64,000 nucleotides of DNA from Altererythrobacter sp. CAU 1644 (GTDB lineage: Bacteria > Pseudomonadota > Alphaproteobacteria > Sphingomonadales > Sphingomonadaceae): contig NZ_CP121106.1 in the NCBI RefSeq assembly GCF_029623755.1, forward strand, positions 186,001-250,000, in the 5' to 3' direction. Below, piece after piece: positions 1,277 to 29,968 of this stretch. Under the pieces are notes generated by a model, which saw only the letters and a program-made list of their open reading frames with translations, ran no database searches and was not told the origin of the DNA. Numbering within the stretch: position 1 is the stretch's first letter; every line of letters starts with the position of its first letter. The translations under genes were made by a program, and so were the position numbers.

Positions 1277-1296
1277 CCAAAAGTGAGCATTGCCGC
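1277..1296 (+). promoter_or_regulatory. Conserved motif copy A (candidate operator)
   Basis: The 20-mer CCAAAAGTGAGCATTGCCGC sits 58 bases before the Rieske start at 1355. It matches the copy at 14793-14812 at 18 of 20 positions and the minus-strand copy at 12736-12755 at 16 of 20. Position upstream of starts and this identity point to a shared regulator site or promoter element; the binding protein is unknown. Confidence 0.6.
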
Positions 1297-1354
1297 GGCG
1301 CGCCGCACGCAACATCATGCAGCACGCAAACAGAAACGCGCGAGGGAACAGACG

Positions 1355-2584
1355 ATGTCACGACAGCAATTGATCGACATGACGCGGTCGCTGGTGGCGC
1401 ATGGCGAAGCGGGCACGATGGAACTGGCGGACGACGTCGTTCGGATTCCAGCCTCGAGCTACACTGACGAGGCGCTGTTCGAGCGCGAGAAGAAGCAGAT
1501 CTTCCGCCGCCTTCCGCTGATGGTCGCGCCCTCGTGCGAGCTACCAAACCCGGGCGATTACAAGGCGATGGACATCTGCGGTGTCCCGCTGCTGCTCACC
1601 CGGCAGAAGGACGGCAGCGTCGGCGCCTTCCTCAACATGTGCAAGCATCGCGGGAACCCCGTCGCCGCGGGCACGGGCAATGCCACGCGCCTCATGTGCG
1701 GCTATCATGGCTGGACCTACAAGAACGATGGCACGCTCGTCGGGGTTGCGAGCCCGCAGGATTTCGGCGCGGTCGACAAGGCCGCCCTGTGCCTGACGCG
1801 CTTCCCGGTCTACGAGAACGCGGGGCTGATCTGGGCCACGCTGGATCCGCAATCGACGCTCGACATCGCCGATTACCTGTGCGGCTACGACGATCTGCTC
1901 AAGGCCTTTGGCTTCGAGAGCTGGCACCTGTTCAGCCAGCGCACCCTGTCAGGCCCGAACTGGAAGACGGCCTACGACGGCTATCTCGATTTTTACCATC
2001 TGCCCGTTCTGCACGCGAACACCTTCGGCGCCGATTTCTACAACCGGGCCAACTACTTCGCCTGGGGGCCGCACCAGCGGCTGTCGACGCCGACGAAGTA
2101 CGCGGTCAAGGTCTCGAGCGACGACGACATGCAACTCGACCTGACCACGGTCGCCGATGACGACCTGTCATACGAGGTGCTCGTTCAAGGCGTGTGGACG
2201 ATCTTCCCACATATCTCGATCGCCAGCTTCTACGGCGGCGGGCTGCGCGGGGCGATGATCAGCCAGCTGTTCCCGGGCGACACGGTGGGCGAGAGCTACA
2301 CCACCCAGTTCTATGTGATGGAGCACGAACCCGACGACGAGGACAAGATCAAGGCTGCACGCGAACAGTTCGATTTTCTCGAAGTGGTGGTGCGCGACGA
2401 GGACTACACCACTGGCAAGCGGCAACACGAGGCTTTGCAGTCGGGCATGCTCAAAGAAGTGCTGTTCGGCCGCAACGAGCGCGGCGGGCAGGTCTTCCAC
2501 CAATGGGTCGAGAAGCTCACCGATGCGAGCGACGAGCAGCTCAAGGAAATCTTCGCCGCGGAATGCAAGCAGGCGGCGGAGTAG
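1355..2584 (+). CDS. Rieske non-heme iron oxygenase, alpha-subunit type
   Basis: This 409-residue protein has a full Rieske [2Fe-2S] motif: Cys96-X-His98 and Cys115-X2-His118 (CKHRG and CGYHGW). The mononuclear iron site is Asp212-X2-His215-X4-His220 in the segment LDFYHLPVLH. Enzymes of this family hydroxylate aromatic or alicyclic rings, or demethylate, using electrons from a ferredoxin or reductase. The start at 1355 is chosen because GAGGGA lies 7 bases upstream; the frame is open further to 1283 without a better site. No ferredoxin or reductase gene is adjacent, so electrons must come from elsewhere. It follows a TonB receptor and carries motif copy A upstream. Substrate unknown; ring hydroxylation fits the neighbourhood best. 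Confidence 0.93.
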   Translation: MSRQQLIDMTRSLVAHGEAGTMELADDVVRIPASSYTDEALFEREKKQIFRRLPLMVAPSCELPNPGDYKAMDICGVPLLLTRQKDGSVGAFLNMCKHRGNPVAAGTGNATRLMCGYHGWTYKNDGTLVGVASPQDFGAVDKAALCLTRFPVYENAGLIWATLDPQSTLDIADYLCGYDDLLKAFGFESWHLFSQRTLSGPNWKTAYDGYLDFYHLPVLHANTFGADFYNRANYFAWGPHQRLSTPTKYAVKVSSDDDMQLDLTTVADDDLSYEVLVQGVWTIFPHISIASFYGGGLRGAMISQLFPGDTVGESYTTQFYVMEHEPDDEDKIKAAREQFDFLEVVVRDEDYTTGKRQHEALQSGMLKEVLFGRNERGGQVFHQWVEKLTDASDEQLKEIFAAECKQAAE

Positions 2585-2632
2585 GCGTTTGGGTATGACA
2601 CGCCGCACATGCGTTCGGATCTGCGTAATTTT

Positions 2633-3088
2633 CTAGATCAACTCCCACGAGATCTTAGTCTTCAAACGCGGCGTATTGTCCACTGCAGACAGCACCCCAT
2701 GGCCTTCGACCCAGGTCGTGAAGTCTTCGAGTTCGGACATGTCTGCGCACCAGCGACTCTCGCGTGCTAGCGCCAGCAGTCTCTCGTCTGGCGCGTAGTA
2801 ACATGTGAGATGGAACTGGCTGTAGACGTCCTCCTCAACATCTCTCACCGACTCTATGAACTGCCGGGTCAGGTCGATTTCGAAGAATGGCCCTGAACCC
2901 CAGTCGTAGATTCCGCTTTGGAACAGCAGCATATCGCCTTCCACTTCAGCCAGTCCGGACGGCCGCTCATTCCGGTAGAAATCCCAGACTGACTGAAGCA
3001 ATTTCCTGATCGGGCTCGCCTCTCTGCCAGCAGATGGGAGGTAGATGCGCTCGAAAACCTCGACTGAATCAGCTGGTTTCATAGCCAT
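2633..3088 (-). CDS. Hypothetical protein
   Basis: This 151-residue protein matches no family I recognise. It is rich in aromatic and acidic residues (WDFYRNERPSG, GIYDWGSGPFFEIDL), with no signal peptide or membrane segment, so it is probably a small soluble cytoplasmic protein. The start has no clear Shine-Dalgarno site; Met1 (3088) and Met3 (3082) are both possible. Its codon use looks less GC-rich than the flanking catabolic genes, which may mean a separate origin. It lies 100 bases downstream of the NmrA-like gene on the same strand and could be its distal partner. Function not assigned. Confidence 0.6.
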   Translation of the reverse strand: MAMKPADSVEVFERIYLPSAGREASPIRKLLQSVWDFYRNERPSGLAEVEGDMLLFQSGIYDWGSGPFFEIDLTRQFIESVRDVEEDVYSQFHLTCYYAPDERLLALARESRWCADMSELEDFTTWVEGHGVLSAVDNTPRLKTKISWELI

Positions 3089-3187
3089 GGCCCGACTTTT
3101 GCCGCATCAAGGCAACGACAGCAATTGGATCGAACGCCGAAGGGCCGGTTCCAGGCGGCAGGTAACGGGGTGGGATTCAGGCGAACC

Positions 3188-4135
3188 CTAACCAAACGCC
3201 GGACGAAAATTGCTCTCGCCCCAGTCCTGCTTGCCCGCCCATTCCTCCATGTCCTCCAGCTTGCCCTCGAGTTCGGGGAAGCGTTCGTAGACATGGTCCA
3301 TATCGACCGAGAAAGGCTTGGTCGGCGCCGTGTTGTTGTACTCGTAGAAGGCGGCGATCCCGGCGGCGAACTCCGTGCGCATCTCCTCGGGCATGTCGTC
3401 GCCTGCCGCGCGCACAAGATAATCGCCGAACTCCTGCGGGGTGCAGGGATCGTATTCGACCGGCTTTTCGAGCGTCTTTGAAAGCACCGCGGCCACTTCC
3501 TGCCCGCGCATCCGCTTGGGCCCACCGATATTGAGCCAGGCACCCTCCATGTCGGGCCGCTCGAGGCTCGCCAGCATGAAGCGCGCGACATCGTCGAGGC
3601 TGATCCAGTTCGCCTCGAGATGCGGGGCGTGCGGATAAACGTAACGCCCTTCGTTGACGATGAAGGGCCGCGCCCAATTGGTCAGGAGGTTGTCCATGAA
3701 CAGCACCGATCCGAACACCGTGCCCGGCGCGCCCGAGCGCCACAGCGCGTTGATCCCCGCCGTGTTGCCGGCATAGGTGAAGGCATCGCCCGGCTTGTCG
3801 GGAATCCAGCTCGACGTGTTCCAGACGACCCGCTTGACCCCCAGCTCGGCGGCCGCCTTGCCTACATCGCCGACCAGCACCGCCCGGTCGGCGCGCGCCT
3901 GTAAAGGATGGGTGTAGAAAATGTAATCCGATCCTTCGAGCGCGCCGCGATAGGAGGAGGGGTCGTAGAGATCCATCGGCCGGACTTCGACCCGCTCCAC
4001 TCCCTCAATCGGTGCACCCGCGAAGGGGTCTGCCTGCCTTGAGATTGCCCGCACATCGTAGCCCGCCTTGAGCGCCTGGCGAACCTGCGCCATCCCTTGG
4101 CGCCCCGAAGCCCCGATTACAGTGATGAGTGCCAT
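3188..4135 (-). CDS. NmrA-like NAD(P)-binding protein
   Basis: This 315-residue protein starts with a Rossmann fold whose dinucleotide loop is GASGRQG (residues 8-14), followed by a KAGYDVRAISR basic strand that would favour NADP. NmrA-like and atypical SDR proteins act either as redox-sensing regulators or as reductases and isomerases. The text VWNTSSWIPDKPGD, where a catalytic Tyr-X3-Lys would sit in classical SDRs, lacks that pair, so catalysis is doubtful. AGGGAG lies 8 bases before the start. It is divergent from an MDR reductase, with a second NmrA-like paralogue at 34467. A role in the catabolic island is inferred from position. Confidence 0.85.
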   Translation of the reverse strand: MALITVIGASGRQGMAQVRQALKAGYDVRAISRQADPFAGAPIEGVERVEVRPMDLYDPSSYRGALEGSDYIFYTHPLQARADRAVLVGDVGKAAAELGVKRVVWNTSSWIPDKPGDAFTYAGNTAGINALWRSGAPGTVFGSVLFMDNLLTNWARPFIVNEGRYVYPHAPHLEANWISLDDVARFMLASLERPDMEGAWLNIGGPKRMRGQEVAAVLSKTLEKPVEYDPCTPQEFGDYLVRAAGDDMPEEMRTEFAAGIAAFYEYNNTAPTKPFSVDMDHVYERFPELEGKLEDMEEWAGKQDWGESNFRPAFG

Positions 4136-4195
4136 GGTTAGTATCTCCCTCGATTGGCGAGAAGCCTAGGAAGTCCGCGAGGGATGCGCACCGAG

Positions 4196-4214
4196 CCAAA
4201 ATGATAGCCGCCGC
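4196..4214 (+). promoter_or_regulatory. Weaker copy of the conserved island motif
   Basis: CCAAAATGATAGCCGCCGC lies between the divergent NmrA-like and MDR genes, about 55 bases before the MDR start. It shares the CCAAAA(T)G head and GCCGC tail with the copies at 1277, 12736 and 14793 but needs a one-base gap, so membership is tentative. Confidence 0.35.
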
Positions 4215-4269
4215 TGCCTAGCGAAATGACCCATTGCCGTAGCGTCGCCAGGTACGGAGAAACCGGGGC

Positions 4270-5271
4270 ATGATGAACCGCTATTGGCGTATCGACGCGC
4301 GACCCGAAGGCACCAATTTCGCGGGTGCGCTCAAGCTGGTCGAAGCCCCCGTTGCAGAGCCGGGCGATGGCCAGATCGCCATCCGCAACGCGATGCTGTC
4401 CATGGATGCGGGAACGCGGATGTGGCTGACCGACCGGACCGACGGCTACCAGCCGCCGCTTGAGATCGGCGCGCCCATGACCGGGTTGGTGCTGGGCGAG
4501 GTGGCGCATTCGCGCCATCCCGATTTTGCCGAGGGCGACCTCGTCCGCGCCTTTGGCGTGTGGGGCGACTTGAGCGTGGTCGACCCGGTGATGAGCGGCG
4601 CAATCAAGCTCGATCCCACGGTCGAGGACCGCCGCGCCTGGTTCGGCCCGCTCGGCATGAACGGTTGGACCGCGCTCTGGGGCGTCGAGCAAACCGGCGC
4701 TGCGAAGGAAGGCGAAACCGTGCTGGTCTCCGCCGCGGCCGGGGCCACAGGCATCCTCGCCGTGCAGATCGCCAAGCTGCTGGGCTGCAAGTCCTGGGGC
4801 ATTGCCGGAGGCGCCGACAAGTGCCGCTTCCTGACCGAGCAGATCGGGATCGACGGGGCGGTAGACTACAAGGCGGCCGATGTAGCCGCGCAACTCGACC
4901 GGATCGGCGGGGTGGACGTCTATTTCGACAATGTCGGTGGGCGGTTGCTCGATGCCGTGCTGACCCGGATGAACCACTACGGCCGCATTGCCGTATGCGG
5001 GCTGGTGTCGGACTATTCCTCGGGCAGTCGCACTGCGCCCCAGGAGTTCGACCAGGTGCTGATGCGTCGCCTCAGGATCGAAGGCTTTTTCTCGCCCGAT
5101 TTCATGGATCAGGGCGAGCGGCTCACCGCACGACTGAGGCAATGGGTCGAGGCGGGCGCGCTGACCATGCCTTACGACGTCACCCGGGGCCTCGAAAACA
5201 CGCTCGACGCCTATGCAAAGCTGTTTACCGGCGGCAATATCGGCAAAGTGATCGTGGAGCTCGAACAATGA
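4270..5271 (+). CDS. MDR-family NADP-dependent oxidoreductase (CurA/prostaglandin-reductase type)
   Basis: This 333-residue zinc-free medium-chain reductase has the GroES-like N-terminal half and a Rossmann half with the loop AAAGATG around residues 155-161. DNVGGRLLDAVL, a signature of the CurA/LTB4-dehydrogenase branch, follows. Members reduce the C=C bond of alpha,beta-unsaturated ketones with NADPH. Met1 and Met2 are adjacent; GGAGA lies upstream of both. The stop overlaps the next start as ATGA, so it is translationally coupled to a SnoaL-like gene. Two paralogues sit at 15618 and 20392, suggesting several enone intermediates in the pathway. Confidence 0.92.
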   Translation: MMNRYWRIDARPEGTNFAGALKLVEAPVAEPGDGQIAIRNAMLSMDAGTRMWLTDRTDGYQPPLEIGAPMTGLVLGEVAHSRHPDFAEGDLVRAFGVWGDLSVVDPVMSGAIKLDPTVEDRRAWFGPLGMNGWTALWGVEQTGAAKEGETVLVSAAAGATGILAVQIAKLLGCKSWGIAGGADKCRFLTEQIGIDGAVDYKAADVAAQLDRIGGVDVYFDNVGGRLLDAVLTRMNHYGRIAVCGLVSDYSSGSRTAPQEFDQVLMRRLRIEGFFSPDFMDQGERLTARLRQWVEAGALTMPYDVTRGLENTLDAYAKLFTGGNIGKVIVELEQ

Positions 5272-5807
5272 ATCTGCGCCTCGAAGACCGCGAAGCCATC
5301 CGCGATGTGATTGCTGCCTACGCCCATGCGGTCGACCGCCGGCGGTGGGACATGATGCAGAACCTGTTTCATCCCGATGCGACATTCGGCTTCGGCACCG
5401 TCGGCGGGAACTGGGAGGATTTTGTCGTCGGTGCCCGCGCGATCATCGACCCGTGCCTCGCCACCCAGCACCAGCTTGGCCAGGTCCAGTTCGGGTTCGA
5501 GGACGACGATCTCTGCCACACCGAAACATATATGACCGCGATGCACACGATACCCGCGGGCTATCCGGTGCCGGACGTCTTTCCCGACAAGGGCAAGACC
5601 TACTCGGCCGTCATTGCCGGGCGCTATGTCGACCGGTTCGAGAAGCGAAGCGGCGCATGGCGGATCAAGCACCGCGAGGGCTTTTACGACTGGCGCGAGT
5701 TCCGCGAGGTTGAGGGTGTCGATCTGGCTGGCCTGCCCGAGGGGTCTTGCGGCTATCACGACGATCGCGACCCTTCGACGCCGGTCGTGCTGCGCTGGCG
5801 CGGCTAG
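5268..5807 (+). CDS. SnoaL/NTF2-like protein
   Basis: This 179-residue protein opens with LRLEDREAIRDVIAAYAHAVD and continues with WDMMQNLFHPDATF, the usual start of the SnoaL-like subgroup that includes scytalone-dehydratase-like and dioxygenase beta-subunit-like folds. Such proteins act as small hydratases, dehydratases or isomerases, or are non-catalytic. The start is set by the ATGA overlap with the MDR reductase stop. Residues such as His33 and Asp24 could serve in a polar pocket, but the reaction cannot be named. Its stop lies in a CTAG palindrome that is also the stop of the convergent thioesterase gene. Confidence 0.87.
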   Translation: MNLRLEDREAIRDVIAAYAHAVDRRRWDMMQNLFHPDATFGFGTVGGNWEDFVVGARAIIDPCLATQHQLGQVQFGFEDDDLCHTETYMTAMHTIPAGYPVPDVFPDKGKTYSAVIAGRYVDRFEKRSGAWRIKHREGFYDWREFREVEGVDLAGLPEGSCGYHDDRDPSTPVVLRWRG

Positions 5808-6223
5808 CCGTTTCGGCTGAAGGCAAACACGCCGGACATCGTCGCGATGGCTTCGCCATTCCGGAAGATGGTTCCGCTGCAATAGGCAGTGCGGCCACCC
5901 AGGCGGTCGATCTGCACCTCTGCCTCCAGCCAGTCGCCCAGTTTCGCTGCGGCCAGGAAGTTGGTCGTCAGCGTGATCGTCGAAGGGGTTAGTCGCGGTC
6001 GCTCGGCATCGTAGACGGCATAGCTCAGCGCGACGTCGGCAAAGGTCGTCAGCACCCCGCCATGCGCGGAATCCTGGTAGTTGATGTGATGCGGCTCGAT
6101 CCTGAGGGCCACCGTGGCCGGACGTCCCTCATTGGCTCTGAGGTAATAGGGTCCACCATGATCGAGAAACCCGGGCGAAAAGGGCGCTCGGTTGAAACCT
6201 TCGGGATGCTGTGTCTCGGCCAT
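5804..6223 (-). CDS. PaaI-type hotdog thioesterase
   Basis: This 139-residue protein is a single hotdog domain. The central helix motif AHGGVLTTFADVALSYA carries the HGG and downstream Asp typical of the PaaI/YbgC branch. These enzymes hydrolyse acyl-CoA thioesters, often rescuing CoA from stalled catabolic intermediates. It is divergent from the acyl-CoA ligase at 6328, which makes a thioester, so a proofreading or overflow role in the same pathway is likely. The 3' end shares the CTAG stop with the convergent SnoaL-like gene. Substrate unknown. Confidence 0.9.
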   Translation of the reverse strand: MAETQHPEGFNRAPFSPGFLDHGGPYYLRANEGRPATVALRIEPHHINYQDSAHGGVLTTFADVALSYAVYDAERPRLTPSTITLTTNFLAAAKLGDWLEAEVQIDRLGGRTAYCSGTIFRNGEAIATMSGVFAFSRNG

Positions 6224-6262
6224 TCTCCTTCCCTAGCCCGGTATCGCCGCGACGCCGCTATG

Positions 6263-6280
6263 AAATGTGCCAATGGCAGC
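6263..6280 (+). promoter_or_regulatory. Weak copy of the island motif before the acyl-CoA ligase
   Basis: AAATGTGCCAATGGCAGC matches the inner 18 bases of copies A and B at 12 positions, and lies 47 bases before the ligase start, at a spacing like copies A and B. It could be chance. Confidence 0.3.
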
Positions 6281-6327
6281 GCGCGCGATCTGACCTAGAC
6301 CAAGGGCCGCCAGCTGAGAGGATATGC

Positions 6328-7914: not shown

Positions 7915-7924
7915 GAGACAAGCA

Positions 7925-8803: not shown

Positions 8804-8892
8804 CGCACTCTCTCCCCATTTCCGCGAGTTGTGATCGGGTGACTATCGGCGCAGCCTCGGCTCAAGCCCATTCGCAATTTCGGGAGGAAAGC

Positions 8893-10158: not shown

Positions 10159-10182
10159 GATCGATCCCAATCCTCGAACGGG

Positions 10183-10953: not shown

Positions 10954-10975
10954 GGGGGCTCCGGATCTTGGGGGG

Positions 10976-11050: not shown

Positions 11051-11095
11051 CAGCGAACGCGAATTTCGATTTCAACCGGTCAAGGGAATTCGGAC

Positions 11096-12706
11096 TCAGG
11101 CGTTCGCGTTCGCCGCGCTGCGACCGGCGATATAGCCAAAGGTCAGCGCCGGTCCGAGCGTACCCCCTGCCCCGGCGTAGATCCCGCCGGTGGGGCAGGC
11201 GATGGCGTTGCCGGCACCGAATAGGCCGGGGATTGGCTTGCTGTCATGGCCGAGGATGCACGCGGCACCATCGGTGCGCGCCCCTCCGTTGGTGCCGAGC
11301 AATCCCATGTGGATCTCCACAGCGTAGAAGGGAGCGCGCTCGACCGCGCCGAGCGTGACGGCGGTCCCCTCGCGGCTGCGATCGCCATAGAAATGGTCGT
11401 AGGCGCTGGTGCCGCGCTGGAAATCGGGGTCATGCCCCTCGCGTGCGTGGGCGTTGAAGCGCGCGACGGTCGCTTCGAGGGCTTCGCCTTCGATGCCGAG
11501 CTTCCCGGCCAGCTCGCCCAACGTATCGGCGCGCGGTACCCAGTCGGGCACGGGCTCGTGCGGCATACGCGTGCCTATCGGGTAGCGCTCGACATAATCC
11601 TGATCGAACACCAGCCATGCGGGCAGGTTGGGATAATCGTAGGTCTGCGGGTCGAACTGGTGGAAGGCGCCCGCCAGCGCCGAATAGTTGGCAGCTTCGT
11701 TGCAGAAGCGCTGACCCGCGCGATTGACCAGCAGCGAATGCGGAACGGTGCGCTCGATCAGCACCGGTTCGGCGCGCTGCTCACCGCCCGACCACTTCCG
11801 CCCCGGCGGCGCCAGCGTCGGTGCCCACCACGCCTGCGTCATGTTGCCGAGCTTCGCCCCTGCCGCCATCGCCAACGCCAGCCCCATGCCCGCAGCGGTC
11901 GGCGGAGAAGCCGGCGCATCCATCGGCCCGCGCAGAAAGGCCTGGCGCATCTCGGCATCCCACTCGAATCCACCGGTGGCGATCACGACGCCCTGGACGG
12001 CGTGCAAGGCGGTGCCGTCTGCCAGTACTACGCCCGCAATCCGGCCCTCTTCCATCATGAGCCGCACGACTTCGCTGCCGGTGCGCGGTTCGATCCCGCG
12101 ATCGAGGCAGGCCTTGAGCAAGCGGCCCACCATGGCCTGGCCGAAGCCGCGTTCCTGTGCGGCAATCCGCCGCTCCATCTCGGACTCTTCGACGATGCCC
12201 GTGCCGCCGCCGAGCGGAGTCTCGCGCAGCATCATCGGCTTCATGTCCTCGATCGCGTAGATCCGCCCGGCCCATTCGCCGAGTTCGGTCAGCGCGAAAA
12301 GATCATGGTCCAGCGCGCGGCCGCCCTCGGGCTTTGCGCCCGGCCGGTCGAGGTAATAATCGGGATAGCCATCAAGCAACTCCACCTTGAGTGCACCGAT
12401 ATCCTCAAGGAATGAAAGCGCCGCGCCGCCTTTGTCGACAAAGGCTTCGAGCGTGTCGTCGACCAGGTCGCCGTGATCGAGGCTGCGGAAATAGGCGAGC
12501 GCCTCCTCGCGGCTGTCGCTCATCCCGGCAGCGCGCTGGCGCGGATTGTCCGGCACCCAGATCACCCCGCCCGAAACGGCCGAAGTTCCGCCCACGCGCG
12601 CCTCGCGTTCGAGCAATGTTACGCTCGCGCCCGCTTCGTGCGCCGCCAGCGCCGCTGCCATTCCGGCCGCCCCGCTTCCAAGCACGATCACATCGACTGA
12701 TTCCAT
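11096..12706 (-). CDS. FAD-dependent dehydrogenase, 3-ketosteroid-delta1-dehydrogenase-like
   Basis: This 536-residue flavoprotein has the FAD-binding loop GSGAAGMAAA (about residues 10-19), the acid end of the second strand at LLEREARVGG, and the C-terminal KSTD-type signature GGIYAGAGGTLGPALTFGY. In studied KSTDs a Tyr and a Gly four residues on promote tautomerisation of the 3-keto group; here YAGAG keeps that spacing. The family inserts a ring double bond beside a ketone in steroids or similar cyclic ketones, or reduces fumarate-like substrates. No strong Shine-Dalgarno is visible. A copy of the island motif lies 30 bases upstream. A steroid or terpenoid-like cyclic ketone is inferred, not shown. 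Confidence 0.9.
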   Translation of the reverse strand: MESVDVIVLGSGAAGMAAALAAHEAGASVTLLEREARVGGTSAVSGGVIWVPDNPRQRAAGMSDSREEALAYFRSLDHGDLVDDTLEAFVDKGGAALSFLEDIGALKVELLDGYPDYYLDRPGAKPEGGRALDHDLFALTELGEWAGRIYAIEDMKPMMLRETPLGGGTGIVEESEMERRIAAQERGFGQAMVGRLLKACLDRGIEPRTGSEVVRLMMEEGRIAGVVLADGTALHAVQGVVIATGGFEWDAEMRQAFLRGPMDAPASPPTAAGMGLALAMAAGAKLGNMTQAWWAPTLAPPGRKWSGGEQRAEPVLIERTVPHSLLVNRAGQRFCNEAANYSALAGAFHQFDPQTYDYPNLPAWLVFDQDYVERYPIGTRMPHEPVPDWVPRADTLGELAGKLGIEGEALEATVARFNAHAREGHDPDFQRGTSAYDHFYGDRSREGTAVTLGAVERAPFYAVEIHMGLLGTNGGARTDGAACILGHDSKPIPGLFGAGNAIACPTGGIYAGAGGTLGPALTFGYIAGRSAANANA

Positions 12707-12735
12707 GACCGACAGTCATGGACCCGCGGCCAAAT

Positions 12736-12755
12736 GCGGCAACTCTCCATTTTGG
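12736..12755 (-). promoter_or_regulatory. Conserved motif copy C (candidate operator)
   Basis: Read on the minus strand the site is CCAAAATGGAGAGTTGCCGC, matching copy A at 16 of 20 positions. It lies 29 bases before the KSTD-like start and between it and the divergent SDR at 12825, so it could serve both. Confidence 0.5.
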
Positions 12756-12824
12756 CCCTTCATTTTGACGAGGTGCACAGGCGCGCGCTCGCGGTTATTG
12801 CCGAGGGGACGCAAGGAGAGGCGC

Positions 12825-13601
12825 ATGAAACTAGAAGGCAAAGTCGCAGCAATTACGGGTGGGACTGCGGGGCTGGGGCGCGGCATCGCCGAGGCGTTCC
12901 TGAAGGAAGGCGCCAAGGTCGCGCTGTTTGCCCGCAATCCGGACAAGGGCGCGAAAGTGATCGAGGAACTGGGGGTCGGTGATCGGGCGATCTTCATCGC
13001 CGGCGATGTGATGAACCAGGCGGACGTCGAGGGCTTCATCGATCAGACCGTCGCTGCCTTCGGCACGGTCGATATTCTCGTCAACAATGCCGGCGGCGCG
13101 GGCGACCTTCAGCCGATGGTCGACCTGTCGGACGAAGCTTTCGACGAGGCGATGAAGTGGAACGTTTATTCGACCTTCTGGGCTTCGCGCCGGGCGCTCA
13201 AGACCATGATCCCAAACAAGAGCGGGCGGATCATCAACATGTCGTCGATGGAAGGGAAGCACGGCAAGCCCGTCTTCACTGCCTATACCGCCGCCAAGCA
13301 CGCAGTGACCGGGATGACCAAGTCGCTCGCGCGCGAAGTCGGCGAGCTCGGCATCACCGCCAATTGCATCTGCCCCGGCCTCGTCATCACCGACATCATC
13401 AAGAACAACGGCCCCGCCACGGCCAAGGCGATGGGCATGGAGTTCGACGAGATGATCGCGATGTTCGCGTCGGAAGCGGCGATCAAGCGTCCCAACACCG
13501 TGGAGGAGATAGCCGCAGTCGCCATGCTGCTCGCCTCGCCCGAAGGCGGCGGGATTACCGGTGCCGCGATCAGCGTCGACGGCGGGACAGCGCAGTATTG
13601 A
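12825..13601 (+). CDS. Short-chain dehydrogenase/reductase (classical SDR)
   Basis: This 258-residue classical SDR has the cofactor loop GGTAGLGRG (about residues 12-20), the NNAGG motif, and the catalytic Ser with YTAAK as the Tyr-X3-Lys pair. The end AISVDGGTAQY is usual for the family. SDRs interconvert alcohols and ketones with NAD(P)H; the ARNPDKG after strand 2 would favour NADP. AAGGAGAG lies 4 bases before the ATG. It is divergent from the KSTD-like gene and followed 37 bases later by a small membrane protein. Likely a hydroxy-intermediate dehydrogenase of the island. Confidence 0.93.
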   Translation: MKLEGKVAAITGGTAGLGRGIAEAFLKEGAKVALFARNPDKGAKVIEELGVGDRAIFIAGDVMNQADVEGFIDQTVAAFGTVDILVNNAGGAGDLQPMVDLSDEAFDEAMKWNVYSTFWASRRALKTMIPNKSGRIINMSSMEGKHGKPVFTAYTAAKHAVTGMTKSLAREVGELGITANCICPGLVITDIIKNNGPATAKAMGMEFDEMIAMFASEAAIKRPNTVEEIAAVAMLLASPEGGGITGAAISVDGGTAQY

Positions 13602-13638
13602 TCCTTGCCCGCTTGGTCGGTCGCAGTAAGGTCACCCC

Positions 13639-13920
13639 ATGATGGGCGAAATCGACTGGTCATTCGTTATCTGGACCGCGGCAGTGTTCCTGTCCGGCTT
13701 TTTGCTGGGCAGGAGGAAGCGCGCGGACCTCGCCCCGCCGCCGGACTTCGACATCGGATCGTTATCGCCTGCCGTGCGGGTGCAGATCGAGGATGCGCTG
13801 AAGCGCAATGCCAAGATCGAGGCGATCCGCCTGTTGCGTGAGGACAGCGGGCTCGGCCTCAAGGATTCGAAATATGTGATCGACCACTGGGATCAATCCC
13901 AGCGGGGACCGGTTCGCTAG
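13639..13920 (+). CDS. Small membrane-anchored protein with L7/L12 C-terminal-like domain
   Basis: This 93-residue protein has one N-terminal membrane segment (FVIWTAAVFLSGFLLG), a basic RRKR stop-transfer run, and a C-terminal part (KIEAIRLLREDSGLGLKDSK) that matches the KxxAIKxxRExTGLgLkeAK pattern of the ribosomal L7/L12 C-terminal fold. Free-standing L7/L12-like proteins of this type occur in many bacteria with no known role. Met1 and Met2 are adjacent. Its stop shares a CTAG with the convergent SDR. It may be co-transcribed with the SDR at 12825. It is probably an ancient housekeeping passenger rather than a pathway enzyme. Confidence 0.78.
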   Translation: MMGEIDWSFVIWTAAVFLSGFLLGRRKRADLAPPPDFDIGSLSPAVRVQIEDALKRNAKIEAIRLLREDSGLGLKDSKYVIDHWDQSQRGPVR

Positions 13921-14729
13921 CCGCCTTGCTGCTTTGCCATCGCCGCTCCCACCGCGGCCTCGATATCGACCGCCTGCGGATTACCGCGCAGCGTCAGCCC
14001 GCCATTGGGCTGGATGTTCTGGCCCGTCACGAAGGCTCTGTCGCTGCACAGCCAGGCGCAGGCCTCGGCCACGTCCTGCGAGGTGTTGAGCCGACCGAGG
14101 GGATATTTTGGCAGGAATGCATCGACCAGTCCGGGCACGGCGAAACTGTCCTTGGTCATGGGGCTTTCGGTGAATGCGGGTGACACCGTGTTCGCCTTGA
14201 TCCCGTATTGGCCGAAGTCGTTGGCGACGCAACGGATCAGTGCCTCGGCGCCCGTCTTGGTGCCGATATAGGCCGCGTGATTGTTGATTAGCGCCTTGGT
14301 GGTTGCCGACGACAGCGAGATCAGCGAACCGCCCTGCGGATCCTGATCCTTCATCACGCTGACAAACGCCTGCAGGAAATGGTGCACGCCCTTGAACTGC
14401 AGCGCCACGATCTGATCGAGCTGTTCCTGGGTGGTGTCGAGCAAATTGGCGAGCAGCCCCCAGCCGCTGGCGTTGATCGCCGCATCGACCCGGCCCATCT
14501 TCTCGGCAGCCGTCTTGGCCAGTGCATGGACCTCGCTGTGGTTGGTGATGTCGCACAAGGCATAATGCCCGCCGAGTTCGCTGGCCAGATCGGCGAGCGG
14601 TTCCTCGTGCCGTCCAGTCACCAGGACTTCAGCGCCCTCCGCGGCAAAGAGTCGGGCGATCGTCTGGCCCATATTGTCCTTGCCCGCCGCACCCAGGATT
14701 ACGGCCTTCTTCCCATCGAGTAACGCCAT
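13917..14729 (-). CDS. Short-chain dehydrogenase/reductase (enoyl-reductase-like)
   Basis: This 270-residue SDR has an atypical cofactor loop, GAAGKDNMGQTIA, like the spaced loops of FabI-type and related enoyl or oxo reductases. The active-site stretch is SLSSATTKALINNHAAY with YIGTK as the Tyr-X3-Lys pair, so catalysis is expected. INASGWG replaces the usual NNAG. The C terminus is long and ends in a Gln/Gly-rich tail. It is divergent from the SnoaL-like gene at 14857, with motif copy B in the shared control region. Cofactor and substrate are not evident. Confidence 0.9.
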   Translation of the reverse strand: MALLDGKKAVILGAAGKDNMGQTIARLFAAEGAEVLVTGRHEEPLADLASELGGHYALCDITNHSEVHALAKTAAEKMGRVDAAINASGWGLLANLLDTTQEQLDQIVALQFKGVHHFLQAFVSVMKDQDPQGGSLISLSSATTKALINNHAAYIGTKTGAEALIRCVANDFGQYGIKANTVSPAFTESPMTKDSFAVPGLVDAFLPKYPLGRLNTSQDVAEACAWLCSDRAFVTGQNIQPNGGLTLRGNPQAVDIEAAVGAAMAKQQGG

Positions 14730-14792
14730 GGAATAGTCCTCTCATCTCCAGCTTTGCCCCACCCTAGGCGCACCGGCGAGGTCGCGCCCTTC

Positions 14793-14812
14793 CCAAAAGT
14801 GTTCATTGCCGC
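14793..14812 (+). promoter_or_regulatory. Conserved motif copy B (candidate operator)
   Basis: CCAAAAGTGTTCATTGCCGC differs from copy A at 1277-1296 only at two central bases. It lies 44 bases before the SnoaL-like start at 14857 and in the divergent region shared with the SDR at 13917. Confidence 0.6.
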
Positions 14813-14856
14813 TGGGGCACCGTCTCGTCGATAGGCAGGCCGACAAGGAGAAAGTC

Positions 14857-15270
14857 ATGTTCAGAGGACCGCACGAAGACCGGCAATCGATCGCAGAACT
14901 CAACGGGACCTATGCCGATGGCGTGGTGCGCAAGGACGCAGGGACGTGGGGAACCGTGTGGGCGGAGGACGCGACCTGGGATTTCTTCGGCAATCTGTTC
15001 GAAGGCAGGGAGGCGATCGTCAGCTTCTGGGAGCAGGCGATGAGCGGAATCGAAGCGGTCAGCTTCCACTGCGTACCCTGCATGACCGAAGTGACCGGAG
15101 ATACCGCCACCGCGCGCGTCCAGACGCAGGAAATCCTCCACATGAAGGACGGCACCACCCGCGTCGTCGGCGGTCTCTATGAAGACCGGCTGGCGAAAAT
15201 CGACGGGCAATGGGCCTTTACGCATCGCAAGTTCGGTATCGTTGCAGAATACAATCCCAAGGGAGACTAA
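14857..15270 (+). CDS. SnoaL-like (NTF2-fold) protein
   Basis: This 137-residue protein has the SnoaL-like start IAELNGTYADGVVRKDAGTW followed by EDATWDFFGNLFEGREAIV. AAGGAGA lies 6 bases before the ATG at 14857; the frame extends upstream without a ribosome site and would swallow motif copy B. It is tightly followed by a small monooxygenase-like gene (2 bases), forming a two-gene unit. SnoaL-type proteins can be cyclases, hydratases or isomerases. Which applies cannot be decided from sequence. Confidence 0.87.
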   Translation: MFRGPHEDRQSIAELNGTYADGVVRKDAGTWGTVWAEDATWDFFGNLFEGREAIVSFWEQAMSGIEAVSFHCVPCMTEVTGDTATARVQTQEILHMKDGTTRVVGGLYEDRLAKIDGQWAFTHRKFGIVAEYNPKGD

Positions 15271-15272
15271 GC

Positions 15273-15611: not shown

Positions 15612-15617
15612 CCGGCG

Positions 15618-16619: not shown

Positions 16620-16647
16620 GGAATTCTCCTTGGGAGCAGGTCGAGGG

Positions 16648-18102
16648 TCAAGCGCTGCCCATCGCCTGGCGATAGAGCGCGCTGTCGGCGGCGTAGAAGT
16701 TGCAATGGAAGCCCGATGGCACGCGGAAAGGGATCTCGACCGTAGCGATCGGACCGCTGGCGATATCCATGGCCGCGAACACCGCCAGTTCGCTCGTGGC
16801 GGCATTGGCGCGGTGCACGAGGGTCAGTGCATAGCCGTCACCCTCTTCCGTCCCGCCGAGACGCGGCGCGAAAATCAGTTCGCCGCAGGAGGCGCCATCC
16901 CCGAAGTGATAGATATCCTCTTCTCCGGTCTGGGTGTCGTAACGCAGCACCGCGTCCATCCCCTCAACCCGTCCGTCGCGCGAATGGAGATTGATGTTGC
17001 CGTAGGCCTGGCGCGAGGCGCGGCTCATCAACCGGTCGTCGGGCCGCGGGAACTGGATGTCGCGCCCGTTAAGCACTTCCTCCTTCATCCAGCCGGTGTT
17101 GCCGTTCGGATCGATCGTCCAGCGGCGCAGGTTCTGCATGGTTTCGGCATGAGTGCGTTTCTCGCCCCGATCGTTCGGGAACAGAGCCGTACGATCCGCA
17201 GCCGCCACATCGGCAATGATCTTGCCGTCGGCATCTTCCCACACGTTGAGCTCGTGGAACATGTGCCGCGGTTCGTATTCGAACCAGCGGATGTCGTCTG
17301 CGCTGCCGTAGCGCGGCATCAGGGCGATCTTGGTCGGTCGACCTTCGACCCATGCGGTCATCGGCCCGCCCTTCTGCGCGCGTTCGATATCGGTGTCGAT
17401 CGGAATGACCGGGATGATCGCCCAGTTCTCGGTCAGGAAGAACGTATGCAGCAACGCCATGTGGGGTACGTCTAGCACTTCGCTTTTCTGCAGCGACCCG
17501 TCGGCATTGATGATGTCATAGCGCATCTGCTTGGCACCCATCGGCCCGTTGATCATCGAACTGACGTTGAACATCTCGCCCGTGGTCTGGTCGATCGTCG
17601 GATGCGCGCCGAAAGTGGTCGTGACCACTTCGCCGTAGTGCTCCTCCCCGCGGGTCGCGAGGCTGCGCGGGTCCATCTCGACCGGTGGCGCGCCTTCCAT
17701 CAGCGCCAGCAGCTTGCCGCCATGGACGATGATATTGGTGTTGCCGGTGTTGTAACGCTTGCCCGCAACGGCGGGATCGCTGGTCATCGGATTTCCGAAA
17801 ATTCCGAACAGGCGCCGACCTGCCTCCTTCTCGAGCTCGAACTTCTCGGTCCGAACCCAGCGATTGCGCATCGACACGCGGCCGTCGGCGATCTCGAAGG
17901 CGTAGATCATCCCGTCACCGTCGAACCAGTGATAGTCGCCCTCGATCGGCGGATAGAGCGATTCCGGCCCGTTACGGTAGAAAATGCCGGCCAGGTCGTC
18001 CGGCAGTTCGCCATGCACGAACAGATCCGGTGCGTCGGCCTCGATCCGCATCGGGGCGTGGTGCCCGCTCAGATAGGGGTGGTCGAAGAAGGGTTGGGTC
18101 AT
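16648..18102 (-). CDS. Carotenoid-oxygenase-family dioxygenase (lignostilbene/apocarotenoid type)
   Basis: This 484-residue protein belongs to the RPE65/carotenoid cleavage family, seven-bladed propellers with an iron held by four His. Candidate ligands are in FGAHPTID, ALLHTFFL, MFHELNVW and PSGFHCNFY, in the expected order. The family splits a C=C bond with O2 in carotenoids, apocarotenoids or stilbenes. Bacterial members in sphingomonads often act on lignin-derived stilbenes. AAGGAGC precedes the ATG. There is no signal peptide. It leads a two-gene operon with an MDR reductase and is divergent from the molybdopterin oxidoreductase. The substrate is not readable. Confidence 0.92.
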   Translation of the reverse strand: MTQPFFDHPYLSGHHAPMRIEADAPDLFVHGELPDDLAGIFYRNGPESLYPPIEGDYHWFDGDGMIYAFEIADGRVSMRNRWVRTEKFELEKEAGRRLFGIFGNPMTSDPAVAGKRYNTGNTNIIVHGGKLLALMEGAPPVEMDPRSLATRGEEHYGEVVTTTFGAHPTIDQTTGEMFNVSSMINGPMGAKQMRYDIINADGSLQKSEVLDVPHMALLHTFFLTENWAIIPVIPIDTDIERAQKGGPMTAWVEGRPTKIALMPRYGSADDIRWFEYEPRHMFHELNVWEDADGKIIADVAAADRTALFPNDRGEKRTHAETMQNLRRWTIDPNGNTGWMKEEVLNGRDIQFPRPDDRLMSRASRQAYGNINLHSRDGRVEGMDAVLRYDTQTGEEDIYHFGDGASCGELIFAPRLGGTEEGDGYALTLVHRANAATSELAVFAAMDIASGPIATVEIPFRVPSGFHCNFYAADSALYRQAMGSA

Positions 18103-18223
18103 CGCAATGCTCCTTGCATCGACTAGTGCAGGAAGCGGGGTGACCTATCAGCTAGCAAAAGTAACCGTCGAACCGGTGGTGCCTGCGGGGGCATAAGGGC
18201 AGGATCAAATCGAGGAACGCCCC

Positions 18224-20368
18224 ATGCCCGTCGAGACACACCGCACATTCTGCCGCTTTTGCCACGCCAATTGCGCAATGATTGCCGAGGTAGAGGACGG
18301 CAAGGTCATCAGGGTCAAGGGCGACCCCGACGATCCGGCCTATGGCGGATATACCTGCCTGAAGGGCCGCGAGCTGCCGGATTCGCACAATGCCGAGCAC
18401 CGGCTGCGGCATTCGCTGGTGCGCAACGAGGCAGGTGAATTCGATGAAACCCCGATGATGGAGGCGCTGGGACATGTCTCCGGCGAGCTGCGCCGGATCA
18501 TCGATACTTACGGCCCGCACTCGGTCGCCATCTTCATGGGTTCGGGCGGCTACCAGAACAGCTCCGCCATGGCGGCCTCGCTCAGCCTGGCGCAGGCGAT
18601 CGGCACGCGCAATTTCTACACTTCGGTCACGCTCGACCAGCCCGCCAAGGTCTTCACCACCACGCGCTACGGCAAGTGGATGGGCGGGACCAATACCTTC
18701 TCGGAGGCCGATGTCGCGCTGCTTGTCGGCAACAATCCCCTGGTTTCGCACTACTCGCCGCCGGGAGGAGTGCCGCCGTTCAGCCCCTCGCGCCGCATCC
18801 GCGACCGTCAGGCCGAGGGCATGAAGCTGATCGTAGCTGACCCGCGCGAAAGCGATGTCGCGGCGCTCGCCGACATCTACCTGCCGGTAAAGCCTGGCGA
18901 GGATCCCGCACTGCTCGCAGGCATGCTCAACGTCATCTTCGAAGAAGAGCTCTACGACCGCAATTTCGTCTCCGCGCATGTCGACGGCGTCGAGGAATTG
19001 CAGGCGGCGGTGGCACCCTTCACCCCCCAGGTCGCCGCAGATCGCGCCGGAGTGGACAAGGACCAGCTGGTCGCCGCAGCGCGCATGTTCGCTAACGGAT
19101 CGAAAGGCTGCGCCGTGACCGGGACCGGGCCGGAAATGGCGGGCAACGGCACGCTCACCGAATATCTCGTCACTTGCCTCAACACGCTGTGCGCGCGTTT
19201 CAAGCAGGAAGGCGAGAAATGCGCCATTCCCGGGGTCTTCACCACACCGCAGGCGCCCAAGCGCGCGCAGGTCGGTCCGCCCATGCAGATGTTCGGCGCG
19301 CCGGGCATGGCCAAATCGCGCTTCCGCGGGCTCGGCCAATTGTTGTTCGAAATGCCCTGCAATGTCCTGGCCGACGAAATCCTCACGCCGGGCGAAGGGC
19401 AGATCCGCGCGTTGATCTCGGTCGGAGGCAATCCCGAAGTCGGCTTTCCCAACCAGCTCAAGATGCGCCGCGCGCTCGACGATCTCGAACTATTCGTCCA
19501 GATCGATCCGTGGATGAGCGCCAGCGCGAAACGCGCCGATGTGGTGCTCGCACCCAAACAGTGCCTCGAGCGCGAGGACATCACCAACCTGTCCGAATGG
19601 TGGCACGAGCAGCCCTATGCCCGCTACACCGAGGCGGTCGTCGAGGCCCCCGGCGACGTGATCGACGAATACGAGATGATGTGGCACATCGCCAAGCGCC
19701 TCGGCGTGCAGCTTAAGCTGATGGGCGGGCCGGTTCCGATGGACGGCCACAGCCCGCCGCCCAAGGAATTGTTCCTCGACCTGATGACCGCCGGCTGCCT
19801 GGTCAAGCCGAGCGAGGTGCGCAAGGATGCCCGCGCGCGGGACGGCGCTGCCGTGGTCTATGACGATATCCACCCGGTGGTCGAGGCGGCCGATCCTGCC
19901 GAGCAATACCGGTTCGACCTCAACGCCGGTGCCATGCCGGCGCAGCTCGAGAAATACGGGCGCGACGAGGCCCGTGCCGCCGGATACGATTTCCGCCTGA
20001 TCTCGCGCCGGTCCAAGCATCGCTTCAACTCGATCGGCCAGCCGCTGGCGAAGCTCGGGCGCAAGGTCACCACCAATCCCGCCTATATCCACCCTGAAGA
20101 CATGGCGGCCAAGGGCATCAAGGAAGGCGACGTGATCGAGATCTCGAGCGCGCACGCCTCGATCCACGGGGTTGCCAAGCCCAGCGACCGGGTTCGGCGC
20201 GGGCTGATCTCGATGGCGCATGCCTTCGGCGACAGCGAGGCCGGCAAACACAATGTCCGCGAGGTGGGTGGCTCGACCAACCGTCTGACCAGCGACGAGG
20301 TCGATTACGATCCGATCACCGGGCAGGCGCTGCAGAGCGCCATTCCCGTGCGGATCGCCGCGGCCTAG
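18224..20368 (+). CDS. Molybdopterin-dependent oxidoreductase (DMSO-reductase superfamily)
   Basis: This 714-residue enzyme has an N-terminal [4Fe-4S] motif, Cys10-X2-Cys13-X3-Cys17-X27-Cys45. The molybdopterin domains (VALLVGNNPLVSHYSPPGG, then ALISVGGNPEVGFPNQ) and the C-terminal molydopterin-binding domain (NPAYIHPEDMAAKGIKEGD) follow. There is no twin-arginine signal, so it should be cytoplasmic. Relatives include acetylene-hydratase-like and formate-dehydrogenase-like proteins. No small iron-sulfur or membrane subunit is nearby, so the partner is unknown. It is followed by an MDR reductase (23 bases) and a ThuA-like gene. It may hydrate, hydroxylate or reduce a pathway intermediate; this is inference. 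Confidence 0.93.
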   Translation: MPVETHRTFCRFCHANCAMIAEVEDGKVIRVKGDPDDPAYGGYTCLKGRELPDSHNAEHRLRHSLVRNEAGEFDETPMMEALGHVSGELRRIIDTYGPHSVAIFMGSGGYQNSSAMAASLSLAQAIGTRNFYTSVTLDQPAKVFTTTRYGKWMGGTNTFSEADVALLVGNNPLVSHYSPPGGVPPFSPSRRIRDRQAEGMKLIVADPRESDVAALADIYLPVKPGEDPALLAGMLNVIFEEELYDRNFVSAHVDGVEELQAAVAPFTPQVAADRAGVDKDQLVAAARMFANGSKGCAVTGTGPEMAGNGTLTEYLVTCLNTLCARFKQEGEKCAIPGVFTTPQAPKRAQVGPPMQMFGAPGMAKSRFRGLGQLLFEMPCNVLADEILTPGEGQIRALISVGGNPEVGFPNQLKMRRALDDLELFVQIDPWMSASAKRADVVLAPKQCLEREDITNLSEWWHEQPYARYTEAVVEAPGDVIDEYEMMWHIAKRLGVQLKLMGGPVPMDGHSPPPKELFLDLMTAGCLVKPSEVRKDARARDGAAVVYDDIHPVVEAADPAEQYRFDLNAGAMPAQLEKYGRDEARAAGYDFRLISRRSKHRFNSIGQPLAKLGRKVTTNPAYIHPEDMAAKGIKEGDVIEISSAHASIHGVAKPSDRVRRGLISMAHAFGDSEAGKHNVREVGGSTNRLTSDEVDYDPITGQALQSAIPVRIAAA

Positions 20369-20391
20369 CCACTTCATACAAGGGAACAGAC

Positions 20392-21402
20392 ATGCCCCAG
20401 AACAGGCGCTTTCTCCTCCAGCGTCGCCCCGACGGCGAGCCGGTACCCGAAGACTTCGAACTGGTCACCGAAGCCACGCCCGAACTGGCGGACGGTCAGT
20501 TCCTGATCCGCAATCATTATGCCTCGCTCGATCCGGCGATCCGCGGATGGATGGATGCGGAGGGGAACTACATGCCCCCGATCCCGCTGGGCGACCCGGT
20601 GCGGGCCAGTACGATCGGTGTGGTCGAGGAAAGCCGCGCCGAGGGTTTCGAGAAGGGCCAATGGGTCATGGGCCTCCACGCGCTGGAGGACTTCTCGCTC
20701 AGCCAGGCGGGCGGCTTTACCCAGCCGATCGATCCGTCGCTGGTCCCTAGCGTCACCAACTACCTCTCGATTTTCGGTGCAGTCGGCATGACCGCCTATT
20801 TCGGCTTCCTCGAAGTGTGCGAGCCGAAGGAAGGCGATACCGTGCTGGTGACAGGTGCCGCCGGGGCGGTCGGGTCGCTCGTCGGGCAACTCGCCAAGAT
20901 CAAGGGCTGCCGCGCCATCGGCATCGCCGGCGGGCCGGAGAAATGCGCCAAGCTGACCGAGAAATACGGGTTCGATACTGCGATCGACTACAAGGGAAAG
21001 AGCGAGGCGGACCTCACCAGGGAGATCGCCGCGGCCGCGCCCGACGGGGTCGATGTGATTTTCGAGAATGTCGGCGGCATCATCCTCGATGCCGGTCTCA
21101 TGAACCTCAACCTGCATGCCCGCGTCGGCCTGTGCGGAATGATCAGCGAATACAACACCGAGCCGCGCGGTGTTCGCAACCTGTGGCAACTGATCGTCAA
21201 GCGCGCGCAGATCCGCGGGCTGCTGGTTGCCGACTACGTCGAACGCTTTGGCGAAGGCGCGGCGCAGATGGGCCAGTGGGCGGCGGAGGGCCGGCTGGTC
21301 ATCGAAGAGCAGGTCGATGAAGGGCTGGAGAATACCTACGCCAGTTTCATGCGGCTATTTGCCGGAACCAATCAGGGCAAGATGATCCTGAAGATCGCCT
21401 GA
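20392..21402 (+). CDS. MDR-family NADP-dependent oxidoreductase (CurA type)
   Basis: This 336-residue zinc-free MDR enzyme has the nucleotide loop TGAAGAVGSLVGQ near residue 155 and ENVGGIILDAGL further on. It is the third paralogue in the window and is closest in layout to the one at 15618. AAGGGAAC precedes the ATG. The stop TGA shares one base with the following ATG (TGATG), so the ThuA-like gene is translationally coupled. NADPH-dependent reduction of an activated C=C bond is expected from the family. Location in one operon with a molybdoenzyme suggests a linked redox step. Confidence 0.92.
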   Translation: MPQNRRFLLQRRPDGEPVPEDFELVTEATPELADGQFLIRNHYASLDPAIRGWMDAEGNYMPPIPLGDPVRASTIGVVEESRAEGFEKGQWVMGLHALEDFSLSQAGGFTQPIDPSLVPSVTNYLSIFGAVGMTAYFGFLEVCEPKEGDTVLVTGAAGAVGSLVGQLAKIKGCRAIGIAGGPEKCAKLTEKYGFDTAIDYKGKSEADLTREIAAAAPDGVDVIFENVGGIILDAGLMNLNLHARVGLCGMISEYNTEPRGVRNLWQLIVKRAQIRGLLVADYVERFGEGAAQMGQWAAEGRLVIEEQVDEGLENTYASFMRLFAGTNQGKMILKIA

Positions 21403-22184
21403 TGAGCACACTGCTCGTCCTCTCCGGCGGGCATCCCTACGAGGAAGCTCCGTTCGACGAGCTGATCCATTCGCTGGGTTTCGAGCGGGTCGAGCACCTG
21501 GTCCATCCGGAGGCGGAGGCTGCGGTGGCGGCGGGAGCGGCCGACCACGCCGATGCACTGCTGTTCTACGACATGGGAGGGTACACCTTTGCCGATGGTG
21601 CGGTGGCCACTCGCCCGCCCTCACCCGAATTCCGCCAGGCGATCGAGCGCCGGTTCGCTTCGGGCAAGGGGGCGGTCGCCATGCATCACGCGCTTGCCGG
21701 CTGGGCCGAATGGCCGGAATGGCACGCTATGCTGGGCGGGCGTTTTCTCTACCAGCCAGACGAATGGCAAGGTCGGCCGGCACCTGATTCCGGGTACCGC
21801 CACGACGTCGCCTATCAGGCCGAAGCGCTGTGCCACCACCCGATCTTCGACGGCGTCCCTTCGACCTTCGCGGTCATCGACGAACTCTACCTCGCCCAAG
21901 TGGACGAATCGGCCGTCACTCCGCTGATTCGCGCGAACCATGTCTTCACCCGCGACAATTTCTATTCCGCCGCACTGGCGGTTGGTGGGACCATGTTCAG
22001 CAATGACGGATGGGATCACGCCGACGGATCGGACCTGATCGGATGGGAGCGCAGGATCGGCGCAGCCCCCCTGATTTACCTGCAATTCGGTGACGGGCCC
22101 GAGACTTATCGCAATCCGCATGTGCATCGCCTGCTGGCCAATGCCCTGCGTTACACCGCAACTGCTTCAATTCACGATGGCTGA
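21402..22184 (+). CDS. ThuA-like (glutamine-amidotransferase-fold) protein
   Basis: This 260-residue protein has the ThuA fold: LLVLSGGHPYEEAPFDELI at the start, ALLFYDMGGYTF at the second strand, GKGAVAMHHALAGWAEWPEW at the nucleophile-elbow position, and NPHVHRLLANALRY at the end. ThuA proteins are linked to sugar utilisation but their reaction is unclear, and many lack the amidotransferase Cys; here the elbow is His-rich with no Cys. The start is fixed by TGATG coupling. A second ThuA-like gene lies at 26998. Why two occur in a hydrophobic-substrate cluster is not known. Confidence 0.85.
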   Translation: MSTLLVLSGGHPYEEAPFDELIHSLGFERVEHLVHPEAEAAVAAGAADHADALLFYDMGGYTFADGAVATRPPSPEFRQAIERRFASGKGAVAMHHALAGWAEWPEWHAMLGGRFLYQPDEWQGRPAPDSGYRHDVAYQAEALCHHPIFDGVPSTFAVIDELYLAQVDESAVTPLIRANHVFTRDNFYSAALAVGGTMFSNDGWDHADGSDLIGWERRIGAAPLIYLQFGDGPETYRNPHVHRLLANALRYTATASIHDG

Positions 22185-22278
22185 CATTCAGCGCGCGCCG
22201 GTCGGAAAATTGCTCCTTTCAGGCCGATTTCCTAACACTTTCACGGAGTGCGCCTTCCGCTGGCCCGGCGCTAGTCTG

Positions 22279-22296
22279 GCAAAATAGGGAATCCGC
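22279..22296 (+). promoter_or_regulatory. Weak copy of the island motif before the P450 operon
   Basis: GCAAAATAGGGAATCCGC lies 21 bases before the ATG at 22318. It shares CAAAAT, the G at the eighth position and the CCGC tail with copy C when one gap is allowed. Tentative. Confidence 0.3.
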
Positions 22297-29904: not shown

Positions 29905-29968
29905 CGCGACACCTGCGCCCAAGCGACCGAATATTGCGTTCGGAATGGCCCTGAGGGTAAAAAGTTAG

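Follow-up and report, generated by a model that had tools for sequence, protein, structure and literature searches.

LuxR-type regulators are known from steroid catabolism in Comamonas testosteroni, where TeiR/TesR are needed for, or induce, a steroid catabolic gene set (PMC6895838, PMC12239570, PMC8700777), and the progesterone (pdc) cluster of Caenibius tardaugens contains a LuxR-type gene, EGO55_13855, that is upregulated by the substrate and has been suggested to encode an activator (PMC12239570). A palindromic operator of the same species, TnnCnnTACnAnTnGTAnnGnnA, lies over the -10 element and is read by the repressor EdcR (PMC8700777). The present analysis concerns a 64,000-nucleotide stretch of the Altererythrobacter sp. 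CAU 1644 genome (contig NZ_CP121106.1, positions 186,001 to 250,000; hereafter the window, with positions counted from its first letter), in which a conserved motif recurs upstream of catabolic genes and a LuxR-type regulator is encoded from position 30029. At the lux box and at class II LuxR promoters, the site is a CT-N12-AG dyad positioned near -42, over the -35 element.

The window compares with these systems in part. As with TeiR/TesR, a LuxR-type regulator would be needed for, or induce, a catabolic gene set; this likeness is by description only, and the passages on TeiR/TesR contain no binding-site sequence. EGO55_13855, again compared by description, is likewise a sphingomonad LuxR gene beside catabolic genes, but the pdc cluster is a 4.6-kb unit with BVMO and LLM genes, which are absent among the identified window genes, and the section describing it gives no motif (PMC12239570). 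The EdcR operator is also a cluster-specific conserved site in sphingomonads, but the window motif is unrelated to it in sequence and position. The lux box is a partial parallel in layout, in that the window sites are predicted to be centred at about -41 to -46, over the -35 element, from -10-like blocks placed by eye, and CT-N12-AG is found in boxes before luxR and a second Rieske gene (Ries2) in the genus; however, the three strong copies of the motif are mostly asymmetric, and outside the genus the luxR box is nearly absent. There was no description of the motif among the literature matches listed, which for the letters CCAAAAGTG were 10 of 94 papers and do not establish absence from print.

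The three strong copies, termed sites A, B and C, were found where the first-pass annotation had placed them. Copies A (1277-1296) and B (14793-14812), both on the plus strand, differ only at two N positions, and copy C (12736-12755, minus strand) is identical to A at 16 of 20 positions; the claimed distance of 29-58 bases to the downstream start was also reproduced, being 58 for A (Rieske ATG 1355), 44 for B (SnoaL ATG 14857) and 29 for C (KSTD-like ATG 12706). Within the window there were two matches at three or fewer mismatches against 0.05 expected, and one of 100 window shuffles likewise gave two. With three copies inside 14 kb, such figures would leave some room for a chance likeness, or for upstream DNA having recently been duplicated in this genome alone, a reading that is scarcely credible given that many species retain each site at the corresponding orthologous position. 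As the window-only statistics are modest, the reality of the motif is settled by the whole genome, in which the pattern CCAAAA-N7-TTGCCGC has exactly three matches in 3.24 Mb, namely sites A, B and C, and the reversed-pattern control has none. Allowing up to two mismatches genome-wide gave 88 matches against 100 for the control, i.e. noise, and the information therefore resides in the full site.

Across 114 genomes of the genus, the exact pattern occurred at 76 places in 51 genomes, against 16 control matches. Two spellings recur, preceding the Rieske gene and the KSTD-like gene respectively, and are often separated by 15-20 kb; some of the 76 places, such as CCAAAAGCCGCCTTTGCCGC, recur in what is, by appearance only, coding sequence. 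The core CCAAAAGTGNNCATTG was more specific, with 101 places in 75 of the 114 genomes and none in the control. Of these places, 81 lay within 35 kb of a KSTD of at least 70% identity and one at 88 kb, with the remainder either on contigs other than that of KSTD (6) or in genomes without that KSTD (13). In a sample of 397 family genomes, the core was found in 12 (14 places, 3 control matches), and three of these 12 genomes are outside the genus.

Alignment of orthologous upstream regions revealed a conserved block before each of several genes: CCAAAAGTGAGCATTGCCGC before RiesA, CCCTTCCCAAAAGTGtnCATTG before SnoaL4/SDR2, GCGCACCTTGCCAAAATGA..TTGCC before KSTD/SDR1, CGCACCGCGCCAAAnTGATAGC before NmrA1/MDR1 and CAAAAGTGTCAGTCG before the molybdoenzyme. 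Gene-specific patterns matched 21/24 upstreams for RiesA, 25/28 for SnoaL4, 32/49 for KSTD, 13/22 for MDR1 and 22/26 for the molybdoenzyme, and relaxed patterns matched none of the 92 control upstreams, which were taken from six other genes. The 20 stretches (11 genomes) in the alignment were selected for the exact pattern and their alignment is therefore partly circular; less biased sets were provided by 30 KSTD loci, chosen as best by protein score, and by other-genus stretches picked by LuxR, one of which (L227) comes from a motif-bearing genome. In the other-genus set, the molybdoenzyme and B sites persist, the molybdoenzyme pattern being present in 7/7 upstreams, and in several stretches the spelling is altered, for example to CCAAAAATG or CAAAAGTGCCAGTCG; no comparable SnoaL4 site was seen in the stretches read from the g2 genus. 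Named records bearing the cluster are labelled Erythrobacter, Altererythrobacter, Parerythrobacter, Novosphingobium or Sphingomonadaceae, and in two records, L082 and L083, both Sphingorhabdus-like, KSTD is present and the cluster is not.

To measure transfer between sites, a matrix built from the A, B and molybdoenzyme sites was scored on held-out upstream sets together with six control sets. The held-out KSTD upstreams scored z 16.6 and those of MDR1 also scored highly (Table 1), with the six controls between -4.3 and 2.6; the signal was moderate for 4HBT/ligase and weak for P450b (Table 1), and SnoaL2 upstreams were unmatched (z 0.4). These z-scores, and the Fisher values, overstate independence, as the orthologues are related. 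A 28-bp matrix tried for genome-wide discovery scored 29.1 at A, 34.5 at B and 9.7 at this genome's C, which ranked ninth in the window; it was set aside genome-wide because site C fell below matches inside called genes (20886, 37536 and 16101). Equal matching of coding and intergenic DNA had been proposed in the first-pass annotation as a sign that the motif is spurious, and this does not occur with the exact pattern, while the looser 28-bp matrix does match genes. Its broader suggestion of a regulon site or shared promoter element is supported by the orthologous placement, the uniqueness of the exact pattern and the concentration of core places near KSTD, and the sites are almost certainly genuine regulatory elements.

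At the molybdoenzyme promoter, a TA-containing hexamer lies 19-20 nt past AGTCG in 7/7 other-genus upstreams, and TANNNT lies 18-20 nt past AGTCG in 21/26 upstreams from the genus and named records. The -10-like blocks at the other sites were placed by eye, and from these the centre of the site is predicted to lie about 40-46 bp upstream of the predicted start; at several KSTD promoters only about 7 bases separate the end of the -10-like block from the ATG, suggesting that transcripts there are leaderless. With the 3' block TTGCC(G) at the expected -35 place and -10-like blocks downstream, the motif could in principle be a mere promoter element, used by one sigma factor as a -35 with an upstream element and with no dedicated activator. 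This is improbable, as an element of general use would be expected throughout the genome, whereas here the exact pattern occurs only within the cluster and in relatives mostly does so, and conservation continues for 3-10 bp beyond the 5' end of CCAAAA, varying between sites.

Site C consists of the copy reported previously plus the conserved block GTGCACCTCGTCAAAATGAAGGG. In this genome, a 13-bp tandem duplication (CAAAATGAAGGGC / CAAAATGGAGAG) lies between the conserved left block and the -35-like TTGCC, and the reported copy is therefore its second unit, adjoining TTGCC; the duplication was seen in none of the other 29 aligned KSTD loci. A repeat-like insert of the CGTCATTGCGAGGAGCCGCAGGCGACGCGGCAATCCATGG type separates the divergent KSTD and SDR1 genes in several relatives (L055, L065 and L067). 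Both B and C are flanked by a divergent gene pair and may therefore act in both directions.

On the evidence of this layout and conservation, the motif is a predicted binding site for a cluster-specific transcription activator, which, bound over or next to a weak -35 element, would bring in RNA polymerase by class II activation. Together with the MDR/NmrA and molybdoenzyme sites, A, B and C may co-activate the dispersed and partly divergent units of one degradation pathway. The likeliest activator would be the LuxR solo at 30029, probably sensing a substrate or intermediate of the pathway. The protein carries a GerE/LuxR C-terminal helix-turn-helix domain (PF00196, E 4.3e-13, 49.1 bits against a cut-off of 23.5), and its N-terminus scores 19.8 bits for the autoinducer-binding domain PF03472, under the cut-off of 23. 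In LasR, D73 is the aspartate contacting the acyl-homoserine lactone (AHL) ligand, a residue that a solo need not carry. The LuxR at 30029 has Ser94 at the aligned position in place of this aspartate, and serine occupies it in 55/55 matches of at least 66% identity and in 11/11 below. No luxI synthase family was found among the scanned open reading frames of the window and its flanks, a part of those in the genome.

Co-occurrence argues for a link between this regulator and the motif. LuxR orthologues of at least 80% identity were present in 76 of the 114 genus genomes, two of them partial (G040 and G054); motif and LuxR were both found in 68 genomes, the motif only in 7, LuxR only in 8 and neither in 31. 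Among the 88 genomes that were at least 95% complete, the corresponding counts were 57, 1, 5 and 25, and the lone motif-only genome (G098) is without a KSTD match, its LuxR being just 49% identical and encoded on another contig. None of the 53 KSTD-bearing genomes among the 88 lacked LuxR. In the 64 genomes in which both genes could be placed, LuxR and KSTD were within 60 kb of each other in 36, and in 6 more than 350 kb lay between them on the same contig; in the other 22 they were on different contigs, partly due to fragmented draft assemblies. Linkage alone therefore does not account for their pairing. The three motif-bearing genomes outside the genus all encode LuxR, at 73-91% identity, and many other-genus genomes have LuxR at 66-87% without the exact core. 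In most other-genus stretches read, LuxR of at least 66% identity adjoins ACAD/ThuA/thiolase genes, and the recognition helix contains a stretch, SHAT.RYH.HRA.EKL, that is unchanged in 49 distinct orthologues at or above that identity and altered in 11 more distant relatives.

LuxR paralogues occur elsewhere in the family. Eight stretches around paralogues of 48-59% identity (L173-L180) contained no motif above the noise of the 28-bp matrix. Plasmid pNL2 of N. aromaticivorans carries a 54% paralogue (L207, 7971-8738) among Rieske, ThuA, ACAD, OB-thiolase and E1 genes; at 1e-60, matches were present in 118 of the 397 family genomes. This parallel module suggests a family of LuxR-solo-controlled modules in sphingomonads.

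Four regulators were compared as candidate readers, these being the ones in the scanned open reading frames of the window and its edge (LuxR, one AraC and two TetRs, with presence of the latter three scored at E 1e-40). The LuxR solo, which had been proposed as the first candidate to test, is the best supported of the four and the only one whose distribution follows that of the motif. A rival explanation is that the sites are read by another regulator, of AraC or TetR/MarR type, encoded elsewhere, with LuxR merely belonging to the same pathway. An AraC-type protein would suit an asymmetric two-block site, the genome holds 16 AraC-type domains including one just beyond the window end, and outside the genus the sites persist where the luxR upstream box does not. 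The nearby AraC (from 63384), considered as the reader on account of the site shape and of its place at the window end, was however set aside on its distribution, being found in only 10/114 genus genomes and 4/75 motif-bearing ones; the two TetRs, at 52113 and 58889, were in 3/114 and 7/114 respectively. With the profiles covering these three proteins, a reader other than LuxR is a serious alternative of less than even probability. The AraC-family gene itself, which runs from 63384 to past the window end (L006:823-1746), encodes a Cupin_6 domain and lies beside a Phenol_MetA_deg family protein gene (62307-63341).

That the LuxR at 30029 reads the sites as a cluster-specific activator is, on comparative sequence evidence, judged slightly more probable than its alternatives combined, and several observations weigh against it. 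Sites A, B and C are mostly asymmetric and not clear palindromes, and after dropping identical upstreams CT-N12-AG was no commoner in their upstreams than in others; a reading of A, B and C as perfect dyads, attempted by eye, gave a partial dyad only. The CT-N12-AG box before luxR is missing in this genome and in 19/20 other-genus upstreams, and the A+B+molybdoenzyme matrix gives the genus luxR box only a moderate z of 5.3 and the Ries2 box no signal (Table 1). The strict MDR1 pattern is missing from 7/7 named records and the KSTD pattern from 17/49 upstreams, with the misses clustering (7/9 named KSTD upstreams). The co-occurrence counts include related species and partly mirror shared pathway membership, and the comparison covers four regulators of the genome. 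In the genus and named records, CT-N12-AG around an AA core is present in 32/32 Ries2 and 29/34 luxR upstreams, falling to 5/15 for Ries2 in the other-genus set. From a reading of the alignments, the left part CCT-N4-AAA appears to be common to B, C and the luxR/Ries2 boxes. The motif was initially described as not tied to any named family; a narrower description, as a LuxR-type site, is perhaps possible by inference.

Table 1. Motif sites, related blocks and the candidate regulator in the window
Feature	Position	Strand	Context and evidence
Site A	1277..1296	+	Upstream of Rieske oxygenase 1355-2584 (+); alignments show conserved block
Conserved block GCGCACCGAGCCAAAATGATAGCCG	4186..4210	+	Between NmrA-like (-, start 4135) and MDR (+, 4270); held-out matrix z 9.1 (MDR1)
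Weaker conserved block	6257..6279	+	Between thioesterase (-, start 6223) and acyl-CoA ligase; held-out z 5.1 (4HBT/ligase)
Site C	12736..12778	-	Upstream of KSTD-like 11096-12706 (-) and divergent SDR 12825-13601 (+)
Site B, CCCTTCCCAAAAGTGTTCATTGCCGC	14787..14812	+	Between divergent SDR 13917-14729 (-) and SnoaL-like 14857-15270 (+)
Block GCAAAAGTAACCGTCGA	18155..18171	+	Upstream of molybdoenzyme 18224-20368 (+); own matrix score 14.3
Conserved block, degenerate in own genome	22231..22253	+	Upstream of P450 22318-23556 (+); held-out z 3.4 (P450b), controls up to 2.6
Region upstream of LuxR	29950..29969	+	Genus relatives have CCCTrCGTAAA..GAGG; degenerate in own genome
LuxR-type regulator, proposed reader of sites	30029..30838	+	GerE helix-turn-helix, co-occurrence, conserved operon position, conserved recognition-helix stretch
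Box ACACTGCGCAAAATGCGAGGAG with CT-N12-AG	31449..31470	+	Upstream of second Rieske gene (Ries2) 31484-32911 (+); matrix z 1.0

Weaker look-alikes of the motif noted in the first pass fared unevenly. Those at 4196 (MDR) and near 18155 (molybdoenzyme) fall on conserved upstream blocks and that at 6263 (ligase) on a weaker one, which may belong to the same site family; the look-alike at 22279 before the P450 gene does not coincide with the conserved block there (Table 1). The element GCACCnnGCCAAAATGA is common to the MDR/NmrA block and the KSTD block of relatives. The molybdoenzyme block is a diverged copy of that of relatives, and this genome's upstream fails the strict molybdoenzyme pattern. 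Membership of the Ries2 box in the same family as A, B and C is uncertain. Before the DUF3604 gene (50070-50095), TTCGCAAAAGTGTGAGGG has the form TT-N12-AG, closer to the genus luxR/Ries2 box than to A or B, and is overlapped by the GTG start (50087) of the DUF3604 open reading frame. The carotenoid-oxygenase (RPE65 family) gene of the cluster, at 16648-18102, does not appear among the genes listed for the 20 genus stretches and is present in L072, L084, L085 and L224.

A tentative overall reading, held with somewhat less than even confidence, is of a conserved regulon of Erythrobacter-like bacteria and related sphingomonads, in which a LuxR solo that no longer senses AHLs would act through a largely one-sided derivative of the lux box on a multi-operon pathway for a steroid- or terpenoid-like substrate; the left half-site would be strong, and a right half-site that varies would grade promoter strength. 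The motif would mark out the genes that act together in an uncharacterised catabolic pathway, and offers a precise and easily testable regulator-site pair. If the LuxR solo does bind, the site would be a ready reporter for finding the inducer of the pathway, and the system would represent a quorum-sensing-type protein turned into a metabolite sensor, with an operator dominated by one half-site.

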